Position numbers and translations under genes: made by a program. From Sphingomonas sanguinis (lineage in GTDB: Bacteria > Pseudomonadota > Alphaproteobacteria > Sphingomonadales > Sphingomonadaceae): a stretch of 64,000 bases of DNA. The notes under the pieces are model-generated. The model was given only the letters and a program-made list of their open reading frames with translations. It made no database searches and was not told the DNA's origin. This document shows positions 9,808 through 58,393 of the stretch, in pieces. Each line of letters starts with the position of its first letter. Position 1 is the first letter of the stretch. Location of the stretch: positions 1,213,001 through 1,277,000 of the forward strand of contig NZ_CP079203.1 of assembly GCF_019297835.1 (NCBI RefSeq), in the 5' to 3' direction.

Positions 9808-9951
9808 AAATCCTCCCCATCTCCGATGGGGAGGGGGAACGCTCGCGTCAGCGAGTGGTGGTGGAGCCGACAACGCCAGCGAGAGGCCCCTGCCCCTCCA
9901 CCACAGGGCTGACGCCCGGCGGTCCCCTCCCCAAGCGAGCTTGGGGAGGAA
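9808..9951. repeat. short inverted repeats, family B, copy 1
   Basis: Two imperfect palindromes, cctccccatctccgatgggg at the left and cctccccaagcgagcttggg at the right, flank a middle part containing gtggtggag and cctccaccac. This ctcccc-X-ggggag architecture recurs at about 16409, 20246, 33959, 35251 and 49585. It is non-coding and lies just before the shared terminator between pyrC' and the helicase gene. Confidence 0.65.
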
Positions 9952-9952
9952 T

Positions 9953-9991
9953 AAAAAAGCCCTCCCCGAGACGCCTCGGGGAGGGCTTTTT
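9953..9991. terminator. bidirectional intrinsic terminator
   Basis: A perfect 12-bp stem (gccctccccgag with ctcggggagggc, 9959-9970 and 9975-9986) encloses a four-base loop, with A6 on the left and T5 on the right. It can therefore stop both pyrB-pyrC' from the left and the helicase gene from the right. Confidence 0.9.
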
Positions 9992-10009
9992 ACTGGAACC
10001 GCGAGGGGT

Positions 10010-41550: not shown

Positions 41551-42198
41551 TTACCTCCCGCCGCTCAACTGATCGACATCGCCCATGATCGTGTCGAGCG
41601 CCGTCTTGCTGCTGTCGGTTTCATGCAGGCGGCGCGAGGGCAGCGAGCCTTCGTTTAGGATCGTCTCCAGCGCGACGCGGCCGCGCGCCACGCGGCTCTT
41701 GATCGTACCCACCGCGACGTTGCAGATTTCGGCCGCTTCCTCATAAGCGAAACCACCGGCACCGACCAGGATCAACGCCTCGCGCTGCGGCTGCGGCAGG
41801 TGCATCAGGGCGCGCTGCATGTCGCCCAGTTCGACATGGCGATCCTGGCTGGCCGGAGCCGCCAGAATGCGATCGGCGACCAGATCGTCCCATTCGCCCT
41901 TGAAGCGCGCGCGACGCATCTGCGACAGATACAGGTTGCGCAGGATGATGAAGGTCCAGGCACGCATGTTCGTGCCCGCCTGGAACCGCTTGCGCGCGGC
42001 CCATGCCTTCAACAGCGTTTCCTGCACCAGATCATCGGCCAGATCGCGGCTGCCCGAGAGCGAGCGGCCGAAGGCGCGAAGATGGGGGATGACGCGCGCC
42101 AGTTCCGCCTTGAACTCGGAGTCGGGGAGCGCGACGTGCTCGACGGGCGTATCGGGTGCGTCGTCCTCGAATTCGTCCCGCGTCAGTGGCTGCGTCAT
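41551..42198 (-). CDS. ecfG: general stress response ECF sigma factor EcfG
   Basis: About 215-aa ECF sigma factor of the EcfG (ECF15) group. Region 2 is ELARVIPHLRAFGRSLSGSR, DLADDLVQETLLKAW and MRAWTFIILRNLYLSQMRR (about 35-100), and region 4 is MQRALMHLPQPQREALIL with the helix-turn-helix FAYEEAAEICNVAVGTIKSR (about 125-175). These blocks are characteristic of sphingomonad EcfG. It should recognise GGAAC-N16/17-GTT promoters, is held by NepR and is freed when PhyR is phosphorylated. Start chosen at ATG 42198 by homology; ATG 42237 would add 13 residues. Confidence 0.93.
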   Translation of the reverse strand: MTQPLTRDEFEDDAPDTPVEHVALPDSEFKAELARVIPHLRAFGRSLSGSRDLADDLVQETLLKAWAARKRFQAGTNMRAWTFIILRNLYLSQMRRARFKGEWDDLVADRILAAPASQDRHVELGDMQRALMHLPQPQREALILVGAGGFAYEEAAEICNVAVGTIKSRVARGRVALETILNEGSLPSRRLHETDSSKTALDTIMGDVDQLSGGR

Positions 42199-42255
42199 GA
42201 AAATCCGATCATCGGAAACGGCCGCCCTCGCGACCATTTCGAAACATAAGGGGCC

Positions 42256-42493: not shown

Positions 42494-43294
42494 TTATTCC
42501 GCCGGGACGGTGCTCTGGTCGAAGAACAGCGCCTGGCTGATCGCGGCCTTCACGGTCGACCGCTGGAACGGCTTGGTGATCAGGAAGGTCGGCTCCGGAC
42601 GCTCGCCGGTCAGCAGACGCTCGGGGAAGGCGGTGATGAAGATGACCGGAACCTCGAACTCGGCCAGGATGTCCTTGACCGCATCAATGCCCGAGCTGTC
42701 ATCGGCCAGCTGGATGTCCGCCAGAACCAGGCCCGGACGGTCCTCCATGGCCAGCGCCACGGCCTCGTCGCGGGTCACGGCGACGCCCGTGACTTCATGG
42801 CCCAGGTCGCGCACGATCGTCTCGATATCCATCGCGATGATCGGCTCGTCCTCGATGATCAGCACGCGGGCGCGGGTCTGCTTTTCGATCTCTGCCAGCG
42901 CCTCGGAGACGAGGTTCTCGACCTCGCTCGGCTCCACGTCGATCAGATAGGCCGCGTCCTCGGGCGTGAAGCCCTCCATCGCGGTCAGCAGCAGCGCCTG
43001 GCGCGACAGCGGCGTCATCCGGGCGAGGCGAGCGCGGGCCAGACCTTCGTTGCCGTCGGCATCGACACCGTCATTGTCCAGCTCGTCATAATTGGCCGAC
43101 GACCAGATGCCCTGGAACATGCGGTACAGGCCCAGGCGCGGATCGACGTCGCGCGGAAACTGGTCCGGGGCCGCGACGATCGCCTCCAGCGTCGCGCGAA
43201 CATATTTGTCGCCGTGCATCTGGCTGCCGGTCAGGGCCCGGCCATAGCGCCGCAGGAAGGGAAGATGGGGCGCAAGCTGCTGTCCAAGCGACAT
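42494..43294 (-). CDS. phyR: general stress response regulator PhyR
   Basis: 266-aa PhyR. The N-terminal half (about 1-135) imitates an ECF sigma factor (HLPFLRRYGRALTGSQMHGD, then a region-4-like TPLSRQALLLTAMEGFTPED). The C-terminal half (about 140-260) is a receiver domain with acidic E148-D149-E150, phosphoacceptor Asp193 in VLADIQLADD, Thr221 in FITAFPE and Lys241, of the FAT-GUY type. On phosphorylation the sigma-like part binds NepR and frees EcfG (partner switching). The ATG follows CAGGGAG. Divergent from nepR-phyP. Confidence 0.97.
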   Translation of the reverse strand: MSLGQQLAPHLPFLRRYGRALTGSQMHGDKYVRATLEAIVAAPDQFPRDVDPRLGLYRMFQGIWSSANYDELDNDGVDADGNEGLARARLARMTPLSRQALLLTAMEGFTPEDAAYLIDVEPSEVENLVSEALAEIEKQTRARVLIIEDEPIIAMDIETIVRDLGHEVTGVAVTRDEAVALAMEDRPGLVLADIQLADDSSGIDAVKDILAEFEVPVIFITAFPERLLTGERPEPTFLITKPFQRSTVKAAISQALFFDQSTVPAE

Positions 43295-43429: not shown

Positions 43430-43454
43430 GGAACCAACCAGATCGAATTTGGTT
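43430..43454 (+). promoter_or_regulatory. EcfG-type promoter of nepR-phyP
   Basis: GGAAC (43430-43434), 17 bases, GTT (43452-43454). This matches the alphaproteobacterial general-stress consensus GGAAC-N16/17-GTT and lies about 100 bases before nepR, implying positive autoregulation of the locus. Confidence 0.65.
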
Positions 43455-43556
43455 TCATCGCCACATCAACTATGGCCCTGGCATGACGCCAACCGGCGGC
43501 GCCACGGGCCGCCATCGCGTCGGTTGCCCCGCTAGTGGGTCGTGCAGGGGGATATT

Positions 43557-43712
43557 TTGAGTTTGGGCAACAAGACGAAGAAGACGCCGTCCTCCACGCC
43601 CGAAAAGGGCGGTCAGAAAGATGCGGGCTCGGCACTTCGCCAGGCGTATCAGAAGACCGTGGACGAGCGGATCCCCGACGAGATGCTTGACCTTCTCAGC
43701 AAGCTGGACTGA
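43557..43712 (+). CDS. nepR: anti-sigma factor NepR
   Basis: 51-aa NepR starting with TTG at 43557, five or six bases after AGGGGG. A basic disordered N-terminus (about 1-22) is followed by the conserved core GSALRQAYQKTVDERIPDEM and LDLLSKLD (about 24-51). NepR clamps EcfG in unstressed cells and is titrated by phosphorylated PhyR, encoded divergently. It is followed after 12 bases by the sensor kinase-like gene, so nepR-phyP form an operon. Confidence 0.93.
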   Translation: MSLGNKTKKTPSSTPEKGGQKDAGSALRQAYQKTVDERIPDEMLDLLSKLD

Positions 43713-43724
43713 ACGTCCGGCTGA

Positions 43725-45311
43725 ATGGCCAGCGCACCTCCCCAAGACATCGAGGCTCTCGAACGCCTCCGCCCTGCCCCGCCCCGTCTCGCCACGGGCG
43801 CCAAGCTCGTGCTCGTGCTGGGCTGCACCCTGTTCATCCTGGCCGCGATCGCGGTGTTCGCGACGCTGCAGACGACGCGGCTGGCCGATAGCGAGGCGAG
43901 CGGGCGGCTGCGCATAGCCGCCAACGAAGACGCGCGCGCCATCGCCGCCGAGTTGATGGGCGACATGACCGCGTTGCGCGTCGCCGTGCGCGCCATGGGC
44001 CAGGACCCGCTCGACATGCCGAGCTGCGCGCGCGCCCAGGGGGTCTTCGCGCAACAGTCGATGACGGGCGCGCGTTTCCTCATCACGGATCGCTCGGGCA
44101 AGACGCTGTGCGGCGATCCGCTGCCCGCCGCGCTGCCCGTTCCGGTCGATGGCTCGCCGATCGGCGCTGACATCCTGCCCGGCAAGGGGCTGGTCCTGTC
44201 GGTCGCGAGCCAGGACGGCCGCGCCCAGGCGCGCGCCTTCTTCCCCCTGCCCTTCCTCCAGTCGCTGGTCGACCAGAGCAATCCGACGAGCCCGATCGAA
44301 TCCGTGCTGGAGCTGGACGGCGAGTTGCTCCCCATCCATCAGCTTTCGCGTCAGAGCGCGTTGGAGCGGATGAAGTCGATGCGGACCGAGCTGGGCATTG
44401 CCGGGCTGGTCCTGCGCACCTCCACGCCCAGCGCGCCGATCACCTCCTCGCTGATCGTCGCGCTCGCGCTGCCGCTGCTCATGTGGCTGGCCGCGGTGGT
44501 GCTCGGCTGGTTCATCGTCGACCGGCTGTTGATCCGCCCGCTTCGCCGGTTGCGCACCATCGTCGCCACCTATCAGCCGGGCGAAGTGCTCGATATTTCG
44601 GAGGTCGAGGCCGCGCCCGCGCAGGAAATCCGCGATCTGGCCGACACGTTCGAGGCGATCACCCGCACCGTCGCCACGCACGAGGCCGGGCTGGCCGAGG
44701 GGCTGGTGCGCCAGACCAAGCTGACCCGCGAGGTGCATCACCGGGTCAAGAACAACCTTCAGGTCATCTCCAGCCTCATCAACTTCCACGCGCGCGGCGC
44801 GACGGGGCCGGAGGCGATGGCGGCCTATTCGTCGATCCAGCGGCGCGTCGATGCGCTGGCGGTCGTACACCGCCACCATTTCGCCGAGCTGGAGGAAAAT
44901 CGCGGGCTGAACCTGCGCACCATGATCGGCGAGCTGGCCGCCAATATCCGCGCCACCGCGCCGGAGAATGCGGCCGGGATCGGCATCTCGCTCGACGTCG
45001 CGCCCCTGCTGGTCAATCAGGACGTGGCGGTCGCCGTCGCCTTCCTCGTTACCGAGACGATCGAGCTGGCGATGAACTGCGACCCCGCTGCGCAGATCCG
45101 CGTCGCGATCAAGCCTGCCGAACAGGAGGGCCGCGCGGTCGTCCGCGTCGTCACCCGCGCGCTGGTCGAGACGGACGAGCTTCGCCACCTGATCGGCAAG
45201 CGTTATGGCCGGGTGATGGAAGGGCTGGCGCGCCAGCTTCGCGCACCGCTGCACCATGACCCGCTGGTCGGCGCCTATGAGATCGCTATCCCCATCGTCG
45301 GACGCGACTGA
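43725..45311 (+). CDS. phyP: PhyP-like HisKA_2 sensor with degenerate ATPase domain
   Basis: 528-aa membrane sensor: helix 1 at about 28-50, a periplasmic domain (about 51-240), helix 2 at about 241-265, a HAMP-like linker, then the HisKA_2 phosphotransfer motif REVHHRVKNNLQVISSL (His338/339). The following ATPase region lacks the usual N-box Asn (it reads FLVTETIELAM) and I find no DxGxG box, so autophosphorylation is doubtful. In Sphingomonas the equivalent PhyP has been described as acting mainly as a PhyR phosphatase, which would suit this sequence. Co-transcribed with nepR. Confidence 0.85.
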   Translation: MASAPPQDIEALERLRPAPPRLATGAKLVLVLGCTLFILAAIAVFATLQTTRLADSEASGRLRIAANEDARAIAAELMGDMTALRVAVRAMGQDPLDMPSCARAQGVFAQQSMTGARFLITDRSGKTLCGDPLPAALPVPVDGSPIGADILPGKGLVLSVASQDGRAQARAFFPLPFLQSLVDQSNPTSPIESVLELDGELLPIHQLSRQSALERMKSMRTELGIAGLVLRTSTPSAPITSSLIVALALPLLMWLAAVVLGWFIVDRLLIRPLRRLRTIVATYQPGEVLDISEVEAAPAQEIRDLADTFEAITRTVATHEAGLAEGLVRQTKLTREVHHRVKNNLQVISSLINFHARGATGPEAMAAYSSIQRRVDALAVVHRHHFAELEENRGLNLRTMIGELAANIRATAPENAAGIGISLDVAPLLVNQDVAVAVAFLVTETIELAMNCDPAAQIRVAIKPAEQEGRAVVRVVTRALVETDELRHLIGKRYGRVMEGLARQLRAPLHHDPLVGAYEIAIPIVGRD

Positions 45312-45349
45312 ATTTTTTCAAAAAAAGATTCGCGTAGGCCATAAAAACG

Positions 45350-45374
45350 GGAACCCCTGCCTCGGCAGTGTGTT
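45350..45374 (+). promoter_or_regulatory. EcfG-type promoter of a putative sRNA
   Basis: GGAAC (45350-45354), 17 bases, GTT (45372-45374), 38 bases after the phyP stop. It has the same form and spacing as the promoter upstream of nepR. Transcription should begin around 45381, directly before two hairpins, and no open frame starts until the entericidin gene at 45595. Confidence 0.65.
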
Positions 45375-45380
45375 CTGCTC

Positions 45381-45485
45381 TTCGGATAGCGAACTTATGC
45401 CCCCCCGCTCTCGCTGTCCAAGCCATAGGCCTGGAAGCGTCCACCCTCCCCCCCCCGGTGACGCTTCCAGGCCTTAATCTTTTTC
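45381..45485 (+). ncRNA. putative GsrN-like stress sRNA with exposed C-rich loop
   Basis: About 105-nt transcription unit, bounded by an EcfG-type promoter and an intrinsic terminator. The 5' hairpin is a nine-pair stem (GGATAGCGA 45384-45392 with TCGCTGTCC 45411-45419, one G-U pair) presenting an 18-base loop that contains C7. After an eight-base linker comes a 15-pair terminator stem, also with a C-rich loop, and a T-rich tail. Caulobacter GsrN is a SigT-controlled sRNA of about this size with a C-rich loop that pairs with target leaders. Sequence homology was not tested; the resemblance is architectural. No credible small ORF inside. Confidence 0.65.
45427..45485 (+). terminator. strong intrinsic terminator with C-rich loop
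   Basis: Perfect 15-pair stem aggcctggaagcgtc (45427-45441) with gacgcttccaggcct (45460-45474), a loop of mostly C, and the tail ttaatcttttt. It would end the putative sRNA and any read-through from phyP. Confidence 0.92.
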
Positions 45486-45536
45486 GGGGCATTTCCTCCG
45501 TTTTCCGCCATTCGACGCATGTTCCGTGACAGATGC

Positions 45537-45561
45537 GGAACGATTGCTGGCGTGACGCATT
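45537..45561 (+). promoter_or_regulatory. possible EcfG-type promoter of the entericidin gene
   Basis: GGAAC (45537-45541), 16 bases, CATT (45558-45561), 33 bases before the entericidin ATG. The -10 differs by one base from CGTT. Location is ideal, but the match is weaker than the two other candidates. Confidence 0.4.
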
Positions 45562-45594
45562 GATCCGCGACGGAATTCATCGAGGAGACAGAGA

Positions 45595-45729
45595 ATGCGT
45601 AAGCTCATGGGTCTGGCGATCGTCGCCGGTGCACTGCTGGTCAGCGCCTGCAACACCGTGGAAGGCATGGGCAAGGACGTCAGCTCGGCGGGCAATACCG
45701 TCGCCAAGACGGCCGACAAGTCCAAGTAA
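45595..45729 (+). CDS. entericidin-family small lipoprotein
   Basis: 44-aa EcnA/EcnB-like lipoprotein: signal MRKLMGLAIVAGALLVSAC with the lipobox Cys at residue 19, and the family mature part NTVEGMGKDVSSAGNTVAKT. CGAGGAGA lies about seven bases before the ATG. Entericidins in enterobacteria are a stationary-phase lipoprotein pair; stand-alone copies in alphaproteobacteria are often stress-induced. It directly follows the stress locus and has its own terminator at about 45760. Confidence 0.92.
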   Translation: MRKLMGLAIVAGALLVSACNTVEGMGKDVSSAGNTVAKTADKSK

Positions 45730-45855: not shown

Positions 45856-46215
45856 CTACCGAGATTGGCTGTCAGCAAACTTGGCCCATCTTCGTTCTAG
45901 GCCGCTCGCATCGAGCTTTTCCGCCGGACCTGCGCGGTCAAGCGACTGCATCCACTTCCCTAATTCCGCCTTCGCGAATTGCTGCCCTGTCAACGTAAGT
46001 TGTGAAAAGCGCAACTCCATATTAGGCGTTCTCGACACATTTACATTGGGCTGTAGAAGTCCTTTGTCCTTCATGAATTCAGCGAACACATAGACGACTT
46101 CGGCGCCACGTCGTTGATATTCGCCATTGTCAGGAATGACGTTTCCCGCAGCGTCATAGGTGGTCACAATTTGGTTCAGCATCCACGCTGCCGACACTAA
46201 CACAAAGTCGTTCAT
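45856..46215 (-). CDS. hypothetical protein, 119 aa
   Basis: Soluble protein without a recognised domain. It opens with a mildly hydrophobic stretch (MNDFVLVSAAWMLNQIV) and has a charged C-terminus with a helix QQFAKAELGKWMQSLDRAG (about 80-98). AGGGG six bases before ATG 46215 supports translation. It converges on the entericidin gene and is followed upstream by a family C repeat. Lower GC than its neighbours, hinting at a more recent origin. Confidence 0.55.
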   Translation of the reverse strand: MNDFVLVSAAWMLNQIVTTYDAAGNVIPDNGEYQRRGAEVVYVFAEFMKDKGLLQPNVNVSRTPNMELRFSQLTLTGQQFAKAELGKWMQSLDRAGPAEKLDASGLERRWAKFADSQSR

Positions 46216-46307: not shown

Positions 46308-46403
46308 CCGTGGCCTTCGACTTCGCTCAGGCTGAACGGCGGATTGGGTTTGATCCATTTTCCTCAATTTGTTCAGCCTGAGCGAAGTCGAAGGCCACGC
46401 CCC
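46308..46403. repeat. inverted repeat family C, copy 2
   Basis: Arms gtggccttcgacttcgctca / ggctgaacgg and gttcagcctgagcgaagtcg / aaggccac are exact inverted copies about 35 bases apart. The same unit is present at 29132-29236 with arms turned the other way round. Confidence 0.85.
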
Positions 46404-58183: not shown

Positions 58184-58322
58184 TGCGTTCTCCGTGTCTG
58201 GCTATCGCCGCGCGAGGGGCGGGCTTTCAAGCGGGACGGATCGCATCGGGGGCCGCCACAGACGAGTGAAATTCCTGTAAGATGACCGCTTCGACGAGGC
58301 CCCTCCCCACCGCCGAGCGCAC

Positions 58323-58356
58323 GAAAAAGGCCCGTGCGATCCTGTCGCACGGGCCT
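58323..58356 (-). terminator. intrinsic terminator of the ftsZ operon
   Basis: On the minus strand an 11-pair stem ggcccgtgcga / tcgcacgggcc (58345-58355 and 58329-58339) with loop cagga is followed by T5. It closes the long division transcript 40 bases after ftsZ. Confidence 0.92.
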
Positions 58357-58393
58357 GATATCGGTCCGGTATGCCCGCCGGGCGGGCCGGAAA

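Follow-up and report, generated by a model that had tools for sequence, protein, structure and literature searches.

A predicted small RNA between phyP and ecn

The window analysed here, a 64,000-nucleotide stretch of the Sphingomonas sanguinis genome, holds the genes of a general stress response (GSR) locus. On the minus strand lie an ecfG-type sigma factor gene (41551-42237; PF04542, PF08281, PF22029) and phyR (42494-43294; PF22029, PF22233, PF00072). The plus strand carries nepR, for the anti-sigma factor (43557-43712; PF18557; probable TTG start), a phyP/phyT-like HisKA_2/HWE kinase gene (43725-45311; PF07568, PF07536) and an entericidin-like small lipoprotein gene, ecn (45595-45729; PF08085). 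A probable EcfG-type promoter of ecn itself, GGAAC-N17-ATT, stands at 45537-45561 on the same strand and has the motif found in ecn leaders. In Sphingomonas melonis Fr1, for which GGAAC-N17-20-GTT was derived as the EcfG motif, the locus comprises #1442 (a small secreted protein), #1443 (PhyT, once PhyP), #1444 (NepR), #1445 (PhyR) and #1447 (EcfG), and #1442 and #1444 are EcfG-dependent (log2 -4.7 and -3.4; PMC6599016). From its position and motif we infer that #1442 is the counterpart of ecn. Between phyR and nepR, at 43430-43454, the nearly palindromic GGAACCAACCAGATCGAATTTGGTT may serve both directions; the motif of S. melonis #1444 resembles it.

The initial annotation had placed a stress-controlled small RNA (sRNA) directly behind nepR-phyP, and this is true in the window, where phyP ends at 45311 and the sRNA promoter starts at 45350. 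Direct reading found the EcfG-type promoter, the C7-loop hairpin and the C-loop terminator all as described, and the predicted fold concurred. The promoter, GGAAC-N17-GTT, occupies 45350-45374 on the plus strand (GGAAC at 45350-45354, GTT at 45372-45374). The predicted sRNA of about 105 nt would run on the same strand from 45381, 6-7 nt past GTT, to 45485. Its 5' hairpin of nine pairs (45384-45419) is formed by GGATAGCGA (45384-45392) with TCGCTGTCC (45411-45419), and the 18-base loop of the predicted fold (45393-45410) contains CCCCCCC at 45400-45406. A linker of 7 bases (45420-45426) leads to an intrinsic terminator (45427-45485) with a T-rich tail, in which 45427-45441 pairs with 45460-45474 (15 pairs, plus 3 inner pairs) around a loop with the C-rich CTCCCCCCCCC at 45446-45456; TTAATCTTTTT lies directly 3' of the stem-loop. 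The fold has a predicted energy of -48.6 kcal/mol (z -8.57), equalled in 0 of 200 shuffles, and Cs 45401-45406 have an unpaired probability of at least 0.98. No match to Rfam 15 was obtained anywhere in the window at the family gathering cut-offs, and the best sub-threshold matches to the sRNA were unrelated (E 0.42 or worse).

The combination of features had been called hard to explain by chance. For the promoter pattern by itself this did not stand, as its 3 occurrences in the window against 2.48 expected are not significant; together with C6 the promoter occurred twice in the own genome, and a reversed-pattern control once. Because the pattern is expected 2.48 times per window, conservation had to decide, and conservation and covariation do exclude chance.

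Conservation and covariation in the genus

When 45312-45594 was used as a DNA query, 149 of 151 genus genomes gave matches, as did 136/136 of those of good quality. We aligned 90 loci, the window included, of which 30 were top-scoring and 60 came from the weaker-scoring part; 59 of the 149 matching genomes lie outside this alignment and, as the genomes are related, the counts are not independent. GGAAC and the 17-base spacing were invariant (90/90) and GTT was present in 89/90, with the promoter spacer and the element flanks near random across the same loci. The mean majority share was 0.91 in the 5' loop versus 0.36-0.45 in the flanks, and conservation of the two C-rich loops (0.91 and 0.87) was close to that of the stems (0.84-0.94). 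The loop C-run had 6 Cs in 9 loci, 7 in 74 and 8 in 7; the loss of C7 loop or promoter in close relatives, which the initial annotation had named as evidence against an sRNA, was thus not seen. ATG precedes the C-run in 52/90 loci, TTG in 27 and neither in 11. The earlier statement that no translatable frame fits needs qualification, since the loop ATG of the window copy opens a frame of 26 codons; that frame is nevertheless not kept across the 90 loci, where C-run lengths of 6, 7 and 8 shift it and the peptide lengths scatter.

Covariation was assessed on 89 complete copies (L039 was dropped), reduced to 57 under 93% identity and aligned with MAFFT, with the pairing read from the window copy as the structure. 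Of the cells in this alignment 94.6% pair, and 19 of 27 pairs vary on both sides, which bears out the expectation of conserved stem-loops with compensatory changes. None of 500 shuffles matched any of five measures, a test that related rows inflate, and slid partners paired at less than 45%. The 5' hairpin was paired in 99.4% of cells, with changes on both sides at 5/9 pairs, and the terminator in 92.1%, with such changes at 14/18. Across 64 copies from the family, 14 of them from the own genus, all 27 pairs change on both sides in an alignment made to the model, which leans towards the model structure.

The neighbourhood is largely kept. By tblastn (E≤0.01), phyP lies upstream of the sRNA in 83/90 genus loci and ecn downstream in 85/90; two of the five loci without ecn (L039, L059) are truncated by contig ends. 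Another gene replaces phyP in seven loci (L033, L035, L036, L037, L041, L042, L043), and these seven retain the whole promoter-RNA unit. Identity to the window copy was higher for the sRNA than for the PhyP protein in 81/83 genus loci.

Distribution across the family, order and class

Model R1, which was built without the promoter and against which the window sRNA, itself an R1 member, scores 111.6 bits, matched 94/249 family genomes in 40/96 genera, or 92 genomes once two spurious matches (G185 and G327) had been dropped. Of 385 class genomes, in a sample that may lack Caulobacteraceae, it matched 3: two of the own genus and G519 (32 bits, without the promoter). Model R2, built from 64 family copies, had matches in 88 of the 296 genomes searched across the order, every one within the own family, a count that includes the weakest matches as scored. 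Nothing convincing was found outside the family with R1 in the 385 class genomes or R2 in the 296 order genomes; the filters of these many-genome searches were strict, which makes absences soft.

We inspected 58 distant loci, and 54 of them reached at least 32.6 bits; the four with lower scores, L154-L157, have no EcfG promoter upstream, nor has window 58286. The EcfG promoter GGAAC-N17/18-GTT, which is absent from the model, lies 6-10 bases upstream in 52 of these 54 copies and precedes 0/5 weak matches judged spurious; the two exceptions are L140, with GGAAC-N17-ATT, and L142, with a degenerate -35. Upstream phyP was found in 32/54 distant loci and ecn downstream on the same strand in 41/54. 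The weak model matches L154, L155, L156 and window 58286-58361 were rejected because they had no C-loop promoter unit. At L157 (2501-2591), from another alphaproteobacterial family, two C-rich-loop hairpins stand in matching order and score 35.1 bits with R2, and the EcfG promoter is absent upstream of them. A second copy in G372 (L149 2501-2590) has unrelated stems, the same CCTTTTGCCCCCCCGCTCTC loop core and its own EcfG promoter.

A scan of 84,980 species with the promoter plus GCCCCCCCGCTC gave at least 120 stretches, and 116 of the matches listed were the sRNA; L225, L251, L287 and L298, which lack the hairpins, were set aside as chance matches. Among the matches listed, 80 were titled, as Sphingomonas, Sphingosinicella, Hephaestia, Stakelama, Sphingorhabdus, Parasphingopyxis, Rhizorhabdus, metagenome-assembled genomes (MAGs) and two chance rows; the MAG carriers titled there were placed in Sphingomonadaceae or less precisely. 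With phyP called at E≤1e-35 (98 genomes), the 249 family genomes comprised 86 with both sRNA and phyP, 6 with the RNA only, 12 with phyP only and 145 with neither, a co-occurrence for which kinship inflates any p-value. Two of the 12 phyP-only genomes (G174 and G350) were later matched by R2.

A second C-loop RNA beside phyR

We examined 20 family genomes without an R1 match and found phyR in 17 (E≤1e-30). The phyP type accounts for four of them (G153, G173, G174, G179), and in three of the four, G153, G173 and G179, no such C-loop RNA was found at the locus, where phyP is present. The remaining 13 loci (L320-L332, 12 genera) belong to a lineage without phyP, and in 13/13 a distinct RNA, about 95 nt long, was found near phyR. 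It is preceded by GGAAC-N17-ATT in 12/13 and GGAAC-N18-GTT in 1/13, has a hairpin with the loop GAGACCCCCC(C)TCCCGTCC (C5-C7) followed by a strong terminator, and lies on the strand opposite to phyR, upstream of that gene by at most 520 bases, in 12/13 loci and farther off in L327. One example occupies L328 3905-3999 on the minus strand. The ATT variant of the EcfG motif is common to the ecn promoter and this second RNA.

In the second RNA 95.0% of cells pair and both partners vary at 8/29 pairs; the number of different pair types was unexceptional, being reached in 62/500 shuffles. Its core motif occurred in no other locus among those examined. The second RNA is like the phyP-linked sRNA in its EcfG-type promoter, 5' C-loop hairpin (C5-C7), linker, terminator and GSR locus, but unlike it in the loop GAGACCCCCCTCCCGTCC, the -10 ATT (12/13) and a terminator loop that is not C-rich. 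R2 gave the second RNA in L320 just 16.4 bits. A model of its own, R3, scored its 13 members at 81-109 bits and, where the first RNA lies, gave L147 24.2 bits and L139 17.9; because of these two scores, the first and second C-loop RNAs may be distant kin. An R3 match at window 9920-9992 (29.8 bits) is a hairpin pair without EcfG promoter and was rejected. Three members scored 22.9, 25.1 and 27.9 bits against Rfam CC1840, a Caulobacter sRNA, under a cut-off of 50, and unrelated Rfam families received lower E-values in the same runs; kinship with CC1840 is a lead only.

Comparison with GsrN and other small RNAs

GsrN of Caulobacter crescentus is about 100 nt long and sigma-T dependent, recognises G-rich mRNA sites through six tandem Cs in its 5' loop, and usually lies near GSR genes in Caulobacteraceae (PMC5869019, Tien et al. 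2018). The outline of GsrN in the initial annotation (length, general stress sigma control, a C-rich loop for mRNA) agrees with what is given there. The RNA described here resembles it in length (about 100 nt), in an EcfG/sigma-T-type promoter motif (GGAAC 90/90, GTT 89/90), in an exposed 5' C-run (C6-C8 in 90/90, unpaired in the predicted fold) and in linkage to GSR genes (phyP upstream in 83/90 genus and 32/54 distant loci); the G-rich target sites are those of GsrN. It differs in the second C-rich loop in its terminator, in its position between phyP and ecn, and in belonging to Sphingomonadaceae, the Erythrobacter litoralis outgroup having had no apparent gsrN-like gene in the account of PMC5869019. 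Putative GsrN-like RNAs of Rhizobiaceae were likewise proposed from GSR locus, EcfG site and exposed C-rich loop (PMC5869019), with neighbours other than phyP and ecn. Both comparisons are by published description.

By promoter motif, structure and C-run loop, the RNA falls among EcfG-controlled C-loop sRNAs as a functional kind. Of the proposal that it is GsrN-like, the architecture (length, promoter type, C-loop, locus) stood, while its being a GsrN was not established and the katG signal was inconsistent. By analogy it is an RNA that works like GsrN, descent being unproven. Leaders of katG gave no consistent loop-pairing signal across the 17 loci scored, and katG was dropped as a conserved target. 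The katG start was credible in 9/17, among which only L389 stands out (z -3.07); in the other eight the frame picked had no credible start, and neither own-genome katG start could be settled.

Other alphaproteobacterial sRNAs, namely AbcR, NfeR1 and the cuckoo RNAs, have anti-Shine-Dalgarno motifs that are CCUCC-like, whereas the phyP-linked sRNA has a pure C-run between UG and GCU. Such a motif, also present in Caulobacter SisA-D (PMC12559287), probably pairs with ribosome sites; no description of these sRNAs as EcfG-driven at a GSR locus was found in the text covered. We found no earlier description of either C-loop RNA in the open-licence PMC literature, and term searches of two primary papers on the sphingomonad system, PMC6599016 and (outside its reference list) PMC7083833, turned up no small RNA and no RNA arm of the response.

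nepR as a candidate target

The nepR leader of the window reads CAGGGGGATATTTTG, with TTG as the likely start, and carries GGGGG at the ribosome site (43547-43551, plus strand), where the C7 loop would pair. The fraction of leader windows with a G-run of at least 5 was 0.53 for nepR (n=30, 140 nt), against 0.27 for phyR, 0.14 for ecfG, 0.05 for phyP and 0.02 for ecn (105 nt each). We recognised nepR in 60 of 78 named loci and took the start candidate with the longest G-run, the same rule being applied to control frames. At least five Gs were then found at the nepR ribosome site in 46/60 and at least four in 58/60, compared with 6 and 31, respectively, of 306 other frames of at least 150 codons in the same loci; the chosen nepR candidate was TTG or GTG in 59/60. 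In the window plus 20 genus loci, nepR had at least five Gs in 20/21. For L365 and L374 this means a start that is unusually early, and L380, to which the rule assigned a wrong frame in this set, does have G5. With distant loci added the figure was 24/34, and in three loci no nepR was recognised. By these counts the G-run site itself is real and unusual.

The best loop-leader duplex falls on the nepR G-run in 57/61. Its energies were not better than those of composition-matched shuffled leaders (mean z: nepR +0.22, phyR +0.09, ecfG -0.51, ecn +0.68, phyP +0.72), and duplex energies were consequently dropped as proof of a target. A 13-base target pattern was likewise dropped: its matches in the own genome with up to two mismatches exceeded the reversed control, an excess inseparable from codon bias. 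The nepR site of the window is partly paired in the predicted fold. There are counter-examples on both sides, as L315 keeps the nepR G5 site with no RNA detected, and L317 has a divergent RNA with a nepR that lacks the G-run. At the second-RNA loci, ten nepR frames were recognised; nine of them offer ATG as a start candidate, and at least four Gs occur only in L322, at an inner GTG. The lineage whose nepR lacks the G-run thus has a C-loop RNA of its own, which makes the lineage contrast in nepR G-runs less clean and lowers our confidence in nepR as a target. Among the leaders scored nepR is the best candidate found, a tentative one that we would rather bet against than for; repression of nepR by the sRNA is possible. 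The nepR mRNA of Caulobacter was recovered together with GsrN, GGGGGGCG being the predicted site, and GsrN gave no feedback on sigma-T (PMC5869019).

Proposed role and alternative explanations

From sequence comparison we conclude with high confidence that the element represents a predicted, conserved and previously unlisted family of sRNAs in Sphingomonadaceae with an EcfG-type promoter. To judge from the promoter motif, the stress sigma factor very probably turns it on. We consider it likely that the RNA is a trans-acting regulator of the general stress response, made by EcfG, whose C-runs pair with G-rich mRNA sites, and base-pairing through the C-runs is a quite likely mode of action.

Several other accounts of the element were weighed against a trans-acting RNA. 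An attenuated ecn leader, in which EcfG would start transcription here, most transcripts would end at the terminator and read-through would serve as ecn mRNA, would fit the position of ecn, downstream on the same strand in 85/90 genus and 41/54 distant loci, with phyP upstream in 32/54 of the latter. We regard it as improbable, because an EcfG-type motif of the form GGAAC-N16-18-[AG]TT is present in 76/84 ecn leaders themselves (N17-ATT in 57/84), a strong terminator intervenes, and 13/54 distant copies, some at contig ends, have no ecn nearby. S. melonis #1442, with its own motif, is EcfG-dependent, though read-through could contribute (PMC6599016). The two unusually pure C-rich loops, whose conservation (0.91 and 0.87) is on a par with that of the stems (0.84-0.94), could instead bind a protein or sponge another RNA. 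The nearest studied RNA, GsrN, pairs however with G-rich mRNA sites (PMC5869019), and nothing in the analysis points to a protein partner; this reading is, if anything, the less probable of the two.

That the element merely terminates the nepR-phyP transcript, as its start 39 bases behind phyP might suggest, is very improbable: phyP and the hairpins are separated by a conserved promoter, and the first hairpin with its loop would be superfluous for termination. The possibility raised in the initial annotation that the terminator only ends phyP read-through was also not borne out, given the 7/90 genus loci that keep the unit without an upstream phyP. Least credible of all is a small peptide, for which the 26-codon frame opened by the loop ATG in the window copy would speak; ATG stands ahead of the C-run in just 52/90 loci, the lengths scatter, and changes in the C-run shift the frame.

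In the preferred reading, that of an EcfG-made trans-acting sRNA, stress would lead PhyR to free EcfG from NepR, and EcfG would transcribe the RNA of about 105 nt from the RNA's own promoter. The 5' hairpin would hold its C-run open and the C-rich terminator loop would offer a second one. Pairing of these C-runs with G-rich ribosome-binding sites could then alter the translation or stability of mRNAs. A nepR site of GGGGG(G) with an apparent TTG or GTG start might be easy to block, and repression of NepR would amplify EcfG in a positive feedback, for which the counter-examples given above exist. More broadly, C-loop RNAs may be a general stress arm of sphingomonads, with two forms that stand in for one another in different genera, and the phyP-linked form may act in nepR positive feedback, its C7 loop covering the poly-G ribosome site of nepR, lowering the anti-sigma factor and holding the response on; this wider scheme we consider doubtful. 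In sphingomonads the general stress response has been studied, and negative loops through NepR, NepR2 and PhyT are known; the proposed positive feedback runs counter to them. The predicted sRNA lies in an annotation gap of this known locus and brings a specific, testable candidate target. With its two forms, Sphingomonadaceae would join Caulobacteraceae and Rhizobiaceae as families with C-loop RNAs behind EcfG promoters.

Other features near ecn

A frame of 119 amino acids without a Pfam match adjoins ecn on the minus strand (45856-46215). At 46311-46400 an inverted repeat surrounds TTCGACTTCGCTCAGGCTGAAC and has the appearance of a dispersed repeat element.
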